From: Accumulibacter sp. | Lineage (GTDB): Bacteria; Pseudomonadota; Gammaproteobacteria; Burkholderiales; Rhodocyclaceae | Length of the DNA: 64,000 nt | Assembly: GCA_020049495.1 (NCBI GenBank) | Contig: JAIFKU010000035.1 | Coordinates: forward strand, 51,350-115,349 | Reading direction: 5' to 3' | Part shown: positions 57,052-63,856 of the stretch, one piece after another | How the letters are laid out: each line of letters begins with the position of its first letter | Numbering within the stretch: position 1 is the first letter of the stretch | Notes under the pieces: model-generated | The model's database searches: none | Seen by the model: only the letters and a program-made list of their open reading frames with translations | Told to the model about the DNA's origin: nothing | Position numbers and translations under genes: made by a program

Positions 57052-59283
57052 ATGAGACTTTCCTTGCGTTTTGTTCTGCCGCTGCTGCTGGTTCTCGCCG
57101 GTATCGCCTATGCGGTTGCGCCGCTCGTCGACCAGTTGACTCTGCGCTGGTTCATGCGCGATCTCGAAATGCGCTCGTCGCTAATTGCCAATACCCTTGA
57201 AGAGCCTCTGCAGGAACAATTGGCGGCCGGCAAGAAAGTCAGGATAGCCGCGTTCTTCAACCGCATCACGCGTGACGAGCGCCTCTACGCTGTCGGCTAC
57301 TGCGCGTCGCCGACCGAAAAGGCCGTAGCAAGTCCCGCCTTGCCTGCGGAGGTTTACTGTGCCGATCTCAAACGCTGGGAAGGTCCCGGCGACCACCTGC
57401 TGAAAAGCGCTCAAGGACCTCTGCTGATATCCGTCAAGCCGATCGTCAGCGACGCGGCGCCCGATGGCCGCCTGGTTCTTATCCATGACATGAGCTTCAT
57501 CGCCCGACGCAGCGAGGAAAGCAAGCGCTACGTACTCTACCTGTTCATGGCGCTGGGCGTTGTCGTCTCACTGGTGACGGTGATCATCGCCCAGATTTCG
57601 TGGCACGGCTGGATGGCCGGCATGCGTTCGCTGCTGCGCGGCGAGGGCCTGCTGCGTGAACCGACTGCGGAGCGACAACCCGCACTTCCCGAGTTCCAGC
57701 CGATCGCCCGCGATCTGCAGCGGTTGATACGCGAACTGGAAACGGAAAACCGGACGCGCGATGAAGGCCAGATCATCTGGTCAGCGGAGTCCCTGCGCGC
57801 CATTCTTCACGGTGAGTTGCGCGGCGAGGACGTCATTGTCGTCTCAAACCGCGAACCTTATTTGCACCAGCGACATGGCGATCATATCGACGTGCAGCGC
57901 CCGGCCAGCGGACTGGTGACGGCGCTCGAGCCGATCATGCGCGCCTGCTCGGGAACATGGATTGCGCACGGTAGCGGATCTGCCGACCGCGAGGTCGTCG
58001 ATCAGCACGACCACGTCGCCGTGCCGCCGGATAAGCCTGTCTACCAGATCCGTCGCGTCTGGTTGAGCGCGGAAGAGGAAGCCGGATATTACTACGGCTT
58101 CTCCAACGAAGGGCTGTGGCCGCTTTGCCACATCGCCCACGTGCGGCCGATCTTCCGTTCTGGTGACTGGGCGCAGTATGTCGCGGTCAACCGCAAATTC
58201 GCCAAGGCCGTAGTGAGTGAAGCCAAGACGAGTGCACCAATCGTCCTCGTTCAGGACTACCACTTCGCGCTGTTACCGAAAATGATACGCGATGAATTAC
58301 CCGATGCAACGGTGATCACCTTCTGGCACATCCCGTGGCCCAACCCTGAATCTTTCGCCATCTGCCCGTGGCGAGACGAGATTCTGGCCGGAATGCTGGG
58401 CAGCGCCATTCTTGGCTTTCACACCCAGTTTCACGTCAACAACTTCGTCGATACGGTCGACCGCTTTCTCGAGGCACGCGTCGACCGCGAAGCCTTCACC
58501 GTTTCTTTCGGCGGCAAGCTCACTTCGGTTCGCCGTTATCCGATTTCCATCGCCTGGCCGCCGGAACGTGAGATGGTAGGGAAAGCCGTTGCCGATTGCC
58601 GTACCGACATCCGTCAGTTGAATGAGCTCCCGCCCGAACACAAGCTTGGCGTTGGCGTTGACCGCCTTGATTACACCAAGGGCATCATGGAGCGCTTCCG
58701 CGCTGTCCGGCGGCTCCTGGAGCTGAGCCCGGAGTGGATCGGCCGCTTCAGCTTCGTGCAAATCGCCGCGCCGTCACGTTCCGGCATTGAGGAATACCGG
58801 AATCACGAGCAGCAGGTGCGGGACATGGCCGCGCGCATCAACGGGCGCTTCGCCGGTAACGGACCACCGCCCATCGTGCTCAAGATCGAGCATCACGAGC
58901 CGCGCGACGTCTATGAATATTTTCGCGCCGCCGACCTGTGCTTTGTCAGCAGTCTGCACGACGGCATGAACCTCGTCGCCAAGGAATTCGTCGCGGCGCG
59001 TGATGACGAGCATGGTGTCCTGATCCTTTCCCAATTCACCGGTGCCGCGCGCGAATTGCCAGAGGCCTTGATCGTCAATCCCTACGATGCCGACCAGTGC
59101 GCAGCCGCTTTGCATATGGCCCTGACCATGCCGGAGGCCGAACAGCGCGACCGCATGCGCCTGATGCGCGGCCTGGTCGCCGAGTTCAATGTCTTCCGCT
59201 GGGCCGGCCGCATGCTGCTCGACGCCGCCGCGATGCGCCGCCGCAGCCACCTGGTAGACAAGTCGGGAGCGGCGACATCATGA
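57052..59283 (+). CDS. otsA: Trehalose-6-phosphate synthase (GT20) with N-terminal membrane/extracytoplasmic region
   Basis: C-terminal GT20 ([80 protein letters not shown]) after about 240 aa with two TM segments. Confidence 0.93.
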
Positions 59284-60032
59284 TGAATCGGCACCGTGGC
59301 AAACCTCCAGCGCCAAGCGTCGAGTGGGCCTATTTTCTCGATGTGGATGGCACCCTGATCGACTTTGCCGACACACCGGACGCCGTACATGTCGACACCG
59401 CCCTGCTCGAATTGATCGCACGACTGCATCGTGCCAGCGGCGGCGCTGTCGCCCTGGTTAGCGGGCGCAGCATAGCGGATACGGCAAGTCTGCTTGGCGC
59501 GCTGCGTCTGCCACTGGCCGGTCAGCACGGCCTGGAACGGCGCGACGCCACCGGTCGCTTGTGGATACACGCCGCGCCGCCGGACGCCAAGGCGGCGATC
59601 AAGGCGGCCTTGTTGCCGGTGCTCGATCGTCATCCCGGACTGTTGCTTGAGGACAAGGGCCTGACACTGGCACTGCATTACCGGAAAGCTCCCCATCTTG
59701 GCGCCTACGCGTGTCGCCTGATGACCCGTCTGCTCAATGGGGCTGGCAAAGACCTCGAAATCCAGCGTGGCAAGTATGTCGTTGAAATCAAGCCCGCCGG
59801 CTTCGACAAGGGTACGGCCGTCGGCGAATATCTGTGTGAACCGCCATTCAAAACGCGTCGTCCGGTGTTCATCGGCGACGATCTCAACGATGAACACGGC
59901 TTCGCCGAGGTTAATCAGTTGGACGGCATATCGATCAAGGTCGGCAAGGGTGTGAGTTGCGCCCGCTTCCGCCTTCCCGATGTGGCCACGGTAAGGCACT
60001 GGCTGGGCGAAGCCATGAAAGGACAGCAATGA
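59280..60032 (+). CDS. otsB: Trehalose-6-phosphate phosphatase
   Basis: FLDVDGTLIDFADTPD, LVSGRSIAD, FIGDDLNDEHGFAEVN; ATGA overlap with otsA. Confidence 0.95.
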   Translation: MMNRHRGKPPAPSVEWAYFLDVDGTLIDFADTPDAVHVDTALLELIARLHRASGGAVALVSGRSIADTASLLGALRLPLAGQHGLERRDATGRLWIHAAPPDAKAAIKAALLPVLDRHPGLLLEDKGLTLALHYRKAPHLGAYACRLMTRLLNGAGKDLEIQRGKYVVEIKPAGFDKGTAVGEYLCEPPFKTRRPVFIGDDLNDEHGFAEVNQLDGISIKVGKGVSCARFRLPDVATVRHWLGEAMKGQQ

Positions 60033-61807
60033 ATACTCTCGATCTGGCCATGATTGGCAATTGCACCATAGGCGCGCTGATCGATGCGCAGGCGAAGCTT
60101 GTCTGGGCCTGCTTTCCGCGTTTCGATGGCGACCCGGTATTCTGCTCGCTGCTCAAGAATTCCGATGATTTCGGCTTTTTCGCCATCGAGCTTGCCGATT
60201 GTGAACGAAGCGAGCAGCACTATCTCGTGAATACGGCGATTCTCGTGACGCGCCTTTACGACGCTCATGGCGGCAGCGTCGAAGTTACCGACTTCGCGCC
60301 GCGCTTCGGTCAATACGGACGCATGTTCCGCCCCATGATGCTGGTGCGCCGGATCAAGCGCCTGGGCGGCAGCCCGCGTCTGACCCTGCGCCTGCGTCCG
60401 GCCTGCGGCGAGGGTGCGGCCCGGCCGGAAACGACCTGGGGCAGCAATCACGTCCGCTATGTGGCGCCGGGGCTTACGCTGCGCCTGACGACCGATGCTT
60501 CGATAACCGCCGTCTTGCAGGAAACATCGTTCTTCCTTGAGGACATCGTGACGTTGCTGCTCGGCGCCGACGAAACCGTCAATGAAGCCGCCAGCGATGT
60601 CGGTCGCCGTTTCCTTGAGGAGACGACGCGACACTGGCGCGAGTGGGTGCGCGCGCTGGCCATTCCCTTCGAGTGGCAGGAGGCGGTCATCCGCGCCGCC
60701 ATCACACTCAAACTCAACGCCTACGACGACACCGGCGCGATTGTCGCTGCATTGACCACCTCGATCCCCGAGGCGAAAGGCAGCGGGCGCAACTGGGATT
60801 ACCGTTTCTGCTGGCTGCGCGACAGCTATTTCGTGGTCAACGCCCTTAACCGGCTCGGCGCGACGCGCACCATGGAACGCTACCTTGCCTACATCGTCAA
60901 TATTGCCGCTGACGCCGCCGGCTGCGCACTTCAACCGGTATTCGGCATCGACGGCCGCGCCGATCTGGGGGAACGTGAAATCGCGGCCTTGCCCGGCTAC
61001 CGTGGCATGGGACCGGTGCGCTTTGGCAATCTGGCCTATCGTCAGGTACAGCACGACGTATATGGTTCGGCCATCCTCGCCGCAACGCATATTTTTTTCG
61101 ACCAGCGACTCACCCGCAAGGGCGACAAAGCACTGTTTCTTCGTCTCGAATTGCTGGGCGAACAGGCCATACGATGTCACGATCAGCCGGATGCCGGCCT
61201 ATGGGAACTGCGCGGCAGCGCACGCGTGCATACCTTTTCCGCCGTGATGTGCTGGGCTGCCTGTAACCGTCTGGCGCTGATTGCGGCTCAACTGGATCTG
61301 AGCGAGCGCGCCACCTACTGGCGCCATCACGCGCGCCTTATCCACGCGACCATCTGTGGTCGCGCCTGGAGCGAAACGCGCCAGGCCTTCGTCTCGACCT
61401 TCGACGGAGACGCGATGGATGCGAGCCTGCTGCTGCTGGCGGAGGTCGGTTTCCTCGATGCCGCGGACCCGCGCTTTGCCACCACCGTCGCTGCCGTCGA
61501 GAAGGACTTGCGACGCGGAGACTTTATTTTTCGTTACGTCGAAAAGGATGACTTCGGCGAACCGGAAAATGCCTTCATCGTGTGCACGTTCTGGTACATC
61601 AATGCCCTCGCGGCACTCGACCATCGCGAAGAAGCGCGGACGCTCTTCGAAAAACTATTGTCCTGCCGCAACCGCCATGGATTGCTCGCCGAGCACATCG
61701 ACCCCGAGAGCGGCGAACTGTGGGGGAATTTCGTGCAGACCTATAGCATGGTCGGCCTGATCAACTCCGCAATTCGCCTGTCGATACGCTGGGACCAGGC
61801 ATTCTGA
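60029..61807 (+). CDS. Glycoside hydrolase family 15 protein (glucoamylase/trehalase-like)
   Basis: MIGNCTIGALIDAQAKLVWACFPRFDGDPVFCSLL, GSGRNWDYRFCWLRDSYFVVNALNRLG; ATGA overlap with otsB. Confidence 0.92.
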   Translation: MNTLDLAMIGNCTIGALIDAQAKLVWACFPRFDGDPVFCSLLKNSDDFGFFAIELADCERSEQHYLVNTAILVTRLYDAHGGSVEVTDFAPRFGQYGRMFRPMMLVRRIKRLGGSPRLTLRLRPACGEGAARPETTWGSNHVRYVAPGLTLRLTTDASITAVLQETSFFLEDIVTLLLGADETVNEAASDVGRRFLEETTRHWREWVRALAIPFEWQEAVIRAAITLKLNAYDDTGAIVAALTTSIPEAKGSGRNWDYRFCWLRDSYFVVNALNRLGATRTMERYLAYIVNIAADAAGCALQPVFGIDGRADLGEREIAALPGYRGMGPVRFGNLAYRQVQHDVYGSAILAATHIFFDQRLTRKGDKALFLRLELLGEQAIRCHDQPDAGLWELRGSARVHTFSAVMCWAACNRLALIAAQLDLSERATYWRHHARLIHATICGRAWSETRQAFVSTFDGDAMDASLLLLAEVGFLDAADPRFATTVAAVEKDLRRGDFIFRYVEKDDFGEPENAFIVCTFWYINALAALDHREEARTLFEKLLSCRNRHGLLAEHIDPESGELWGNFVQTYSMVGLINSAIRLSIRWDQAF

Positions 61808-63658: not shown

Positions 63659-63734
63659 TGGTAGGGCGTGACAGATTCGAACTGTCGACCTACGGATTAA
63701 GAGTCCGCTGCTCTACCAGCTGAGCTAACGCCCC
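63659..63734 (-). tRNA. tRNA-Lys(CTT)
   Basis: Minus strand GGGGCGTTAGCTCAGCTGGTAGAGCAGCGGACTCTTAATCCGTAGGTCGACAGTTCGAATCTGTCACGCCCTACCA; anticodon CTT, encoded CCA. Confidence 0.95.
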
Positions 63735-63780: not shown

Positions 63781-63856
63781 TGGTAGGTCGGGGGAGATTC
63801 GAACTCCCGACCAACGGATTAAAAGTCCGCTGCTCTACCGACTGAGCTACCGACCC
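63781..63856 (-). tRNA. tRNA-Lys(TTT)
   Basis: Minus strand GGGTCGGTAGCTCAGTCGGTAGAGCAGCGGACTTTTAATCCGTTGGTCGGGAGTTCGAATCTCCCCCGACCTACCA; anticodon TTT, encoded CCA. Confidence 0.95.

Follow-up and report, generated by a model that had tools for sequence, protein, structure and literature searches.

A putative transmembrane receptor-enzyme in Accumulibacter that joins a Cache/PAS-like sensor to a trehalose-6-phosphate synthase-like domain

To our knowledge, the extracytoplasmic sensors of the Cache/PAS type have as their outputs kinases, cyclases or phosphodiesterases, or chemotaxis domains. The diguanylate cyclases that contain Cache or CHASE domains exemplify the layout: a periplasmic sensor is followed by a second transmembrane (TM) helix and a helical linker, which lead to a cytoplasmic catalytic domain. 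The protein described here has the same coupling layout, but its output is a compatible-solute synthase, not a second-messenger enzyme. It similarly shares with the sensors WalK, CitA, DctB and Mlp24 the order of TM, long helix, five-stranded PAS-like domain and TM, but ends in a glycosyltransferase rather than in a kinase, cyclase or methyl-accepting domain.

On the enzyme side, the protein shares with OtsA (E. coli, 1uqu; M. thermoresistibile, 5jij/5jio) the GT-B fold, all but one of the mapped catalytic residues and an otsB partner. It differs from OtsA in its N-terminus, which is longer by about 255 residues and holds two TMs and a sensor, and in a His (His306) for the Trp of the acceptor motif. 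The soluble haloarchaeal synthases (Haloterrigena, Haladaptatus, Halobaculum) are its closest soluble GT20 sister. They have the QDYHF motif in common with it, and otsB is next door in two of the three; however, they are without TMs or a sensor, and the acceptor-motif Trp (AWG) is kept in the two where the motif was seen. A search of the open-access literature yielded no description of a GT20 that is membrane-bound or fused to a sensor. In the accessible part of a 2024 review of alpha-glucan enzymes with a section on OtsA, the word 'transmembrane' is absent (PMC11046441), and of GSU2337 of Geobacter sulfurreducens another paper says no more than that it is a protein 'containing a domain' with 37% identity to the M. 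tuberculosis enzyme (PMC2700814). We lean towards the view that the protein is a one-component transmembrane receptor-enzyme whose output is the synthesis of trehalose-6-phosphate.

Gene, membrane topology and sensor fold

The window, by which we mean the whole stretch of 64,000 nucleotides of Accumulibacter sp. DNA that was analysed, encodes the protein in an unbroken frame, and a Shine-Dalgarno-like GGAGAG precedes its ATG (Table 1). The gene comes first in an otsA-otsB-GH15 operon, in which both junctions are 4-nt stop/start overlaps (ATGA). Sigma-70 promoter and terminator scans upstream gave no match. The only Rfam matches in the window are two tRNAs, far downstream. No second GT20 was detected in the genome of the window, which is 85% complete.

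Table 1. Features of the window and of the sensor-fused GT20 protein (window positions)
Feature	Position	Strand	Basis or remark
Membrane-sensor-fused GT20 (trehalose-6-phosphate synthase-like), 743 aa plus stop	57052..59283	+	ORF, PF00982 match, homologues, AF2
TM1, residues 5-26	57064..57129	+	Hydropathy, AF2; AF2 helix 2-59 runs on into periplasm
Extracytoplasmic Cache/PAS-like (PDC) sensor domain (predicted), residues 27-158	57130..57525	+	AF2 pLDDT mostly >85, helices then five strands; Foldseek
Cys84, end of strand 1	57301..57303	+	Conserved in 79/80
Cys103, start of helix after strand 2	57358..57360	+	Conserved in 79/80
TM2, residues 160-182	57529..57597	+	Hydropathy, AF2
Cytoplasmic linker, residues 183-258	57598..57825	+	AF2; HAMP-like only in outline
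GT20 catalytic domain, residues 260-722	57829..59217	+	PF00982; E. coli OtsA catalytic positions
His306 of clade signature C-x-G-x-W-[IV]-A-H-G-x-G	57967..57969	+	Alignment; replaces G-W Trp of soluble OtsA; PMC1769515
otsB, trehalose-6-phosphate phosphatase	59280..60032	+	PF02358; above NCBIfam T6PP cut-off; ATGA overlap with GT20 gene
GH15 trehalase-like glycoside hydrolase	60029..61807	+	TREH_N + PF00723; ATGA overlap with otsB
Two tRNA genes near window end	63662-63734 and 63784-63856	-	Rfam

An earlier note on this DNA had described a long N-terminal region with two TMs ahead of the GT20 domain, and in it a predicted periplasmic loop of about 130 residues with two cysteines. Both descriptions hold. 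A 19-residue hydropathy scan gives exactly two peaks (in segments starting at residues 8 and 161), both ahead of the GT20 domain. The mean net charge flanking the TMs is higher at the N-terminus (+2.4) and behind TM2 (+1.8) than on the two sides that face the loop (+0.5 and +0.2). This positive-inside pattern supports a topology with the N-terminus inside, the loop outside and the GT20 domain inside. Residues 1-255 match no Pfam or NCBIfam family above cut-off; a match of TM2 to adenovirus E3B (E=4e-4, below cut-off) was judged a chance match of a hydrophobic segment.

The start has been conserved. Proteins from near genomes, and those from almost all of the 80 loci compared, can be aligned with the window protein from residue 1 (MRLSLRF...) onwards. 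The N-terminal region is encoded from residue 1 in seven of the 60 near genomes, and its profile is matched by 12 of 369 genomes of the class, the window's own being counted both times. Purifying selection acts on the loop, with dN/dS of about 0.05-0.36. It changes more quickly than GT20, at a mean pairwise identity of 41% vs 68%, and the distances of the two co-vary (r=0.81). Eight residues outside the catalytic domain, W33, D37, R41, R77, D146, R153, T176 and A180, are invariant in the 80 aligned proteins, the first six of them in the sensor.

The AF2 model of the N-terminal region was built on a 70-sequence alignment (pLDDT 84), and the full-length model agrees with it. It consists of a long TM1 helix (2-59), a helix (62-75), a strand (80-84), a short second strand, a helix (103-109), three more strands (116-119, 122-131 and 139-146), the TM2 helix (148-195) and a further helix (213-240). 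When compared with the PDB by Foldseek, the top match is the full-length integrative model of WalK (E=1.3e-5, probability 1.00), which is the only one below 0.001. Mlp24, CitA, DctB and the extracellular domain of WalK come next; their E-values are about 0.008-0.1, but their probabilities mostly 0.98-1.00. The comparison with CACHE/PAS folds that the earlier note had called for thus points to a Cache/PAS-like fold, and we read the modelled sensor region as a single domain of this type (PDC) between the two TM helices. The sequence is too divergent in the window protein to give a Pfam Cache, CHASE or PAS match above the curated cut-off. Sub-threshold CHASE4 matches occur in six of the 70 sequences (best E=0.0026), and profile searches of PDB sequences with both N-terminal alignments returned nothing useful.

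The helix of TM2 runs on to residue 195. AF2 confidence is low at about 196-212, beyond which lie an amphipathic helix (213-240; amphipathicity of the second helix p=0.01) and another helix (245-254). The HAMP/coiled-coil-like linker that had been suspected here stands as a helical linker, in which a HAMP domain is at most suggested. The window protein has no significant HAMP match; a weak one (E=0.11) was found in the distant homologue L018 only, and the linker of its group (group B, below) contains a HAMP-like RPLxxLAxWMRRLR.

Distribution, ancestry and losses of the sensor

The homologue search of genome contigs used the whole protein as query, and the 80 loci kept are biased towards close, full-length relatives. 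The frequencies given cover the window's own relatives, class and phylum. The architecture, which the earlier note would have surveyed in Rhodocyclaceae, proves not to be specific to that family but to occur in several phyla. The records behind the 80 relatives are classed under Pseudomonadota, Nitrospirota, Thermodesulfobacteriota and Bdellovibrionota, among others; the named loci include Sulfurisoma, Janthinobacterium, Noviherbaspirillum, Ramlibacter, Nitrospira, Geobacter, Smithella and Bdellovibrionota. Among genomes with a GT20 over cut-off, the fusion is present in 14 of 49 in the class sample (the window's own included) and in seven of 10 within the 60 near relatives. Many proteins annotated only as 'trehalose-6-phosphate synthase' (the same 14 of 49 genomes) are thus integral membrane proteins with a sensor. 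Downstream of the fusion gene, otsB follows on the same strand in 71 of 76 loci, and a GH15 gene is nearby in 49 of 72. MscS-type channel genes are present in six of the neighbourhoods fetched (L023, L030, L055, L059, L060 and L090), and would fit an osmotic role. Two of the loci, L027 and L074, are on MAG contigs that carry the labels Acidobacteria and Cloacimonadota. In the tree, L027 falls together with the window and Sulfurisoma, so that misbinning, mislabelling or recent transfer is likely there.

In a maximum-likelihood tree of 73 GT20 domains, from which L158 was left out, all membrane forms fall into one clade (100/100), and the fusion of sensor to GT20 thus probably arose once. When haloarchaeal and other sequences were added, the soluble haloarchaeal synthases came out as sister of the membrane clade (98-99% SH-aLRT). 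Six proteins, L017, L018, L019, L021, L115 and L116, form a more distant group (group B), sister to group A, with the same arrangement but without the Cys pair. Their N-terminus is homologous to the group A sensor (hhalign E=1e-10), and L018 matches dCache_1 with E=2e-5 at 24.7 of 45 bits, under the curated cut-off. Because both groups have the sensor, the common ancestor of the clade most probably possessed it, as judged from alignment and tree.

The sensor module has been lost wholly or partly in three lineages. In the Rhizobiaceae-type proteins (L149-L157, family code f237; Aminobacter aminovorans by name), one TM is kept and the sensor is absent. In Dechloromonas hankyongensis (L082:5677-7734), a TM hairpin, whose loop has about 15 residues, stands in place of the sensor, and linker and GT20 are still present; judged by its sequence, this protein is a natural sensor-deletion variant. 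In L016/L020 (G272:C53), TM2 has been lost in-frame from a sensor-fused GT20, and a second copy, of group B (L021), is present in the same genome. If the protein is functional and the assembly correct, such a loss would put the enzyme domain outside; the locus may instead be an error of assembly or a copy in decay. Finally, L158 (G700) is an apparently soluble member of the clade with a very long branch. At L175, on the Aminobacter aminovorans plasmid pAA02, the GT20 gene adjoins GT4 and amylo-alpha-1,6-glucosidase genes, with no annotated otsB adjacent.

Receptor or anchor

The sequence, the model and the phylogeny support the architecture, its topology and conservation, the operon and the single origin of the fusion. 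On the receptor-enzyme reading, the N-terminus would be inside and TM1 would carry into the periplasm a single Cache/PAS-like (PDC) sensor, probably held by a Cys84-Cys103 disulfide and joined through TM2 and the helical linker to the cytoplasmic GT20. The latter would make trehalose-6-phosphate from nucleotide-glucose and glucose-6-phosphate. The co-encoded OtsB would dephosphorylate it to trehalose, which the GH15 enzyme probably degrades or recycles. Ligand binding in the periplasm, or a change in the state of the envelope, may shift TM2 and the linker in a putative dimer. This shift would alter the position or the oligomer state of the N-terminal Rossmann half of GT20 and its activity, in one direction or the other. 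That the sensor changes the activity at all we infer from the design and from precedent: OtsA is allosterically regulated, and its N-terminal alpha-1 helix moves far during catalysis (PMC6879718).

The earlier note had seen here the input half of a sensor kinase driving a biosynthetic enzyme. Structurally this reading finds support in the Cache/PAS-like fold, the helical linker and the homologous sensor of group B. A profile search of the window protein found no kinase module (DHp, HATPase) and no cyclase module. The design suggests direct control by an envelope signal of the synthesis of trehalose, a stress-protecting sugar. If so, osmolyte synthesis would be matched to the surroundings within one protein, which would also serve as a test system for the control of a GT-B enzyme by a TM signal. 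The larger claim is that these proteins are a widespread undescribed receptor class, in which a periplasmic Cache-type sensor gates a compatible-solute synthase post-translationally, with no kinase or transcription factor and with the acceptor site remodelled. On this we are evenly divided.

The main rival is a plain anchor or scaffold: the N-terminal region would place trehalose-6-phosphate synthesis at the inner membrane, and the periplasmic domain would not gate it. We consider this rather unlikely, although it draws on the strongest argument against the receptor-enzyme, which is that TM anchoring survives the loss of the sensor. The single-TM Rhizobiaceae proteins and the hairpin of Dechloromonas hankyongensis persist with TM anchors only, and the enzyme can therefore do without the sensor. 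Also counted against the receptor-enzyme are L016 without its TM2, the soluble L158 and the low-confidence stretch of the linker. An anchor alone, however, does not sit well with a sensor that both deep branches and most members have kept, and that has invariant residues and is under purifying selection. The fold, moreover, belongs to ligand-binding sensor modules.

Acceptor site, cysteine pair and start

The PF00982 match to the GT20 domain has E=8e-118 and 394.6 bits (gathering score 32.5) and covers profile positions 2-468 of 473. With M. thermoresistibile OtsA the GT20 half shares 37-38% identity, and the two can be superposed at TMt up to 0.91. Catalytic positions were mapped from those listed for E. 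coli OtsA (PMC1769515). R10, G23, Y77, W86, D131, H155, R263, K268, R301, D362 and E370 (Met counted) are conserved in 80 of 80; the sole exception among the mapped positions is in the G-W motif, where the window protein has His306 in place of the Trp. By alignment, this Trp is the probable acceptor-site residue that contacts glucose-6-phosphate. It is only probable because it counts as residue 41 without Met, whereas the list has Trp40 (PMC1769515).

The sampled sensor-fused enzymes carry CxGxW[IV]AHGxG and QDY[HQ]; the soluble proteobacterial ones whose motifs were legible have GWxG and, in most cases, HDY. The His itself varies somewhat, being Gln or Thr in two close relatives, Thr in Dechloromonas and Tyr in most of the single-TM Rhizobiaceae-type proteins, and the apparently soluble L158 has AHG. 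QDY is not unique to the clade, since mycobacterial OtsA and the haloarchaeal enzymes also have it.

With a His at the probable acceptor site, the exact product of GT20 is uncertain. The clade enzyme might not be a classical trehalose-6-phosphate synthase, the change from Trp to His reflecting another acceptor or a different regulation of how the acceptor binds. The matter is in part separate from that of gating. The G-W Trp is absent from all sampled sensor-fused enzymes and kept in the legible soluble and the sister haloarchaeal ones, the stem branch is long in the tree, and the score lies under the cut-off of the NCBIfam OtsA equivalog TIGR02400 (404.2 bits vs 564.85). We nevertheless hold a non-classical enzyme to be improbable, in view of the adjacent otsB (71/76 loci), the trehalase-like GH15 (49/72) and the retention of all the other mapped catalytic residues.

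Still less probable is a thiol or redox sensor, in which the periplasmic disulfide state of the cysteine pair would set the activity of GT20. Cys84 and Cys103 are nearly universal among the 80 aligned proteins and were lost together in the single exception (L086), as such a sensor would have it. Paired cysteines in the periplasm are, however, usually structural, and the homologous sensor of group B is without them. Hardly credible, lastly, is an artefact of annotation, with the true start near 57780 (about residue 240) and a soluble GT20 as the only product, a start that the earlier note had named, along with an unconserved N-terminus, as telling against its reading: the ribosome-binding-like GGAGAG, the two TM helices, the purifying selection on the loop and the alignment of relatives from residue 1 all place the start at 57052.
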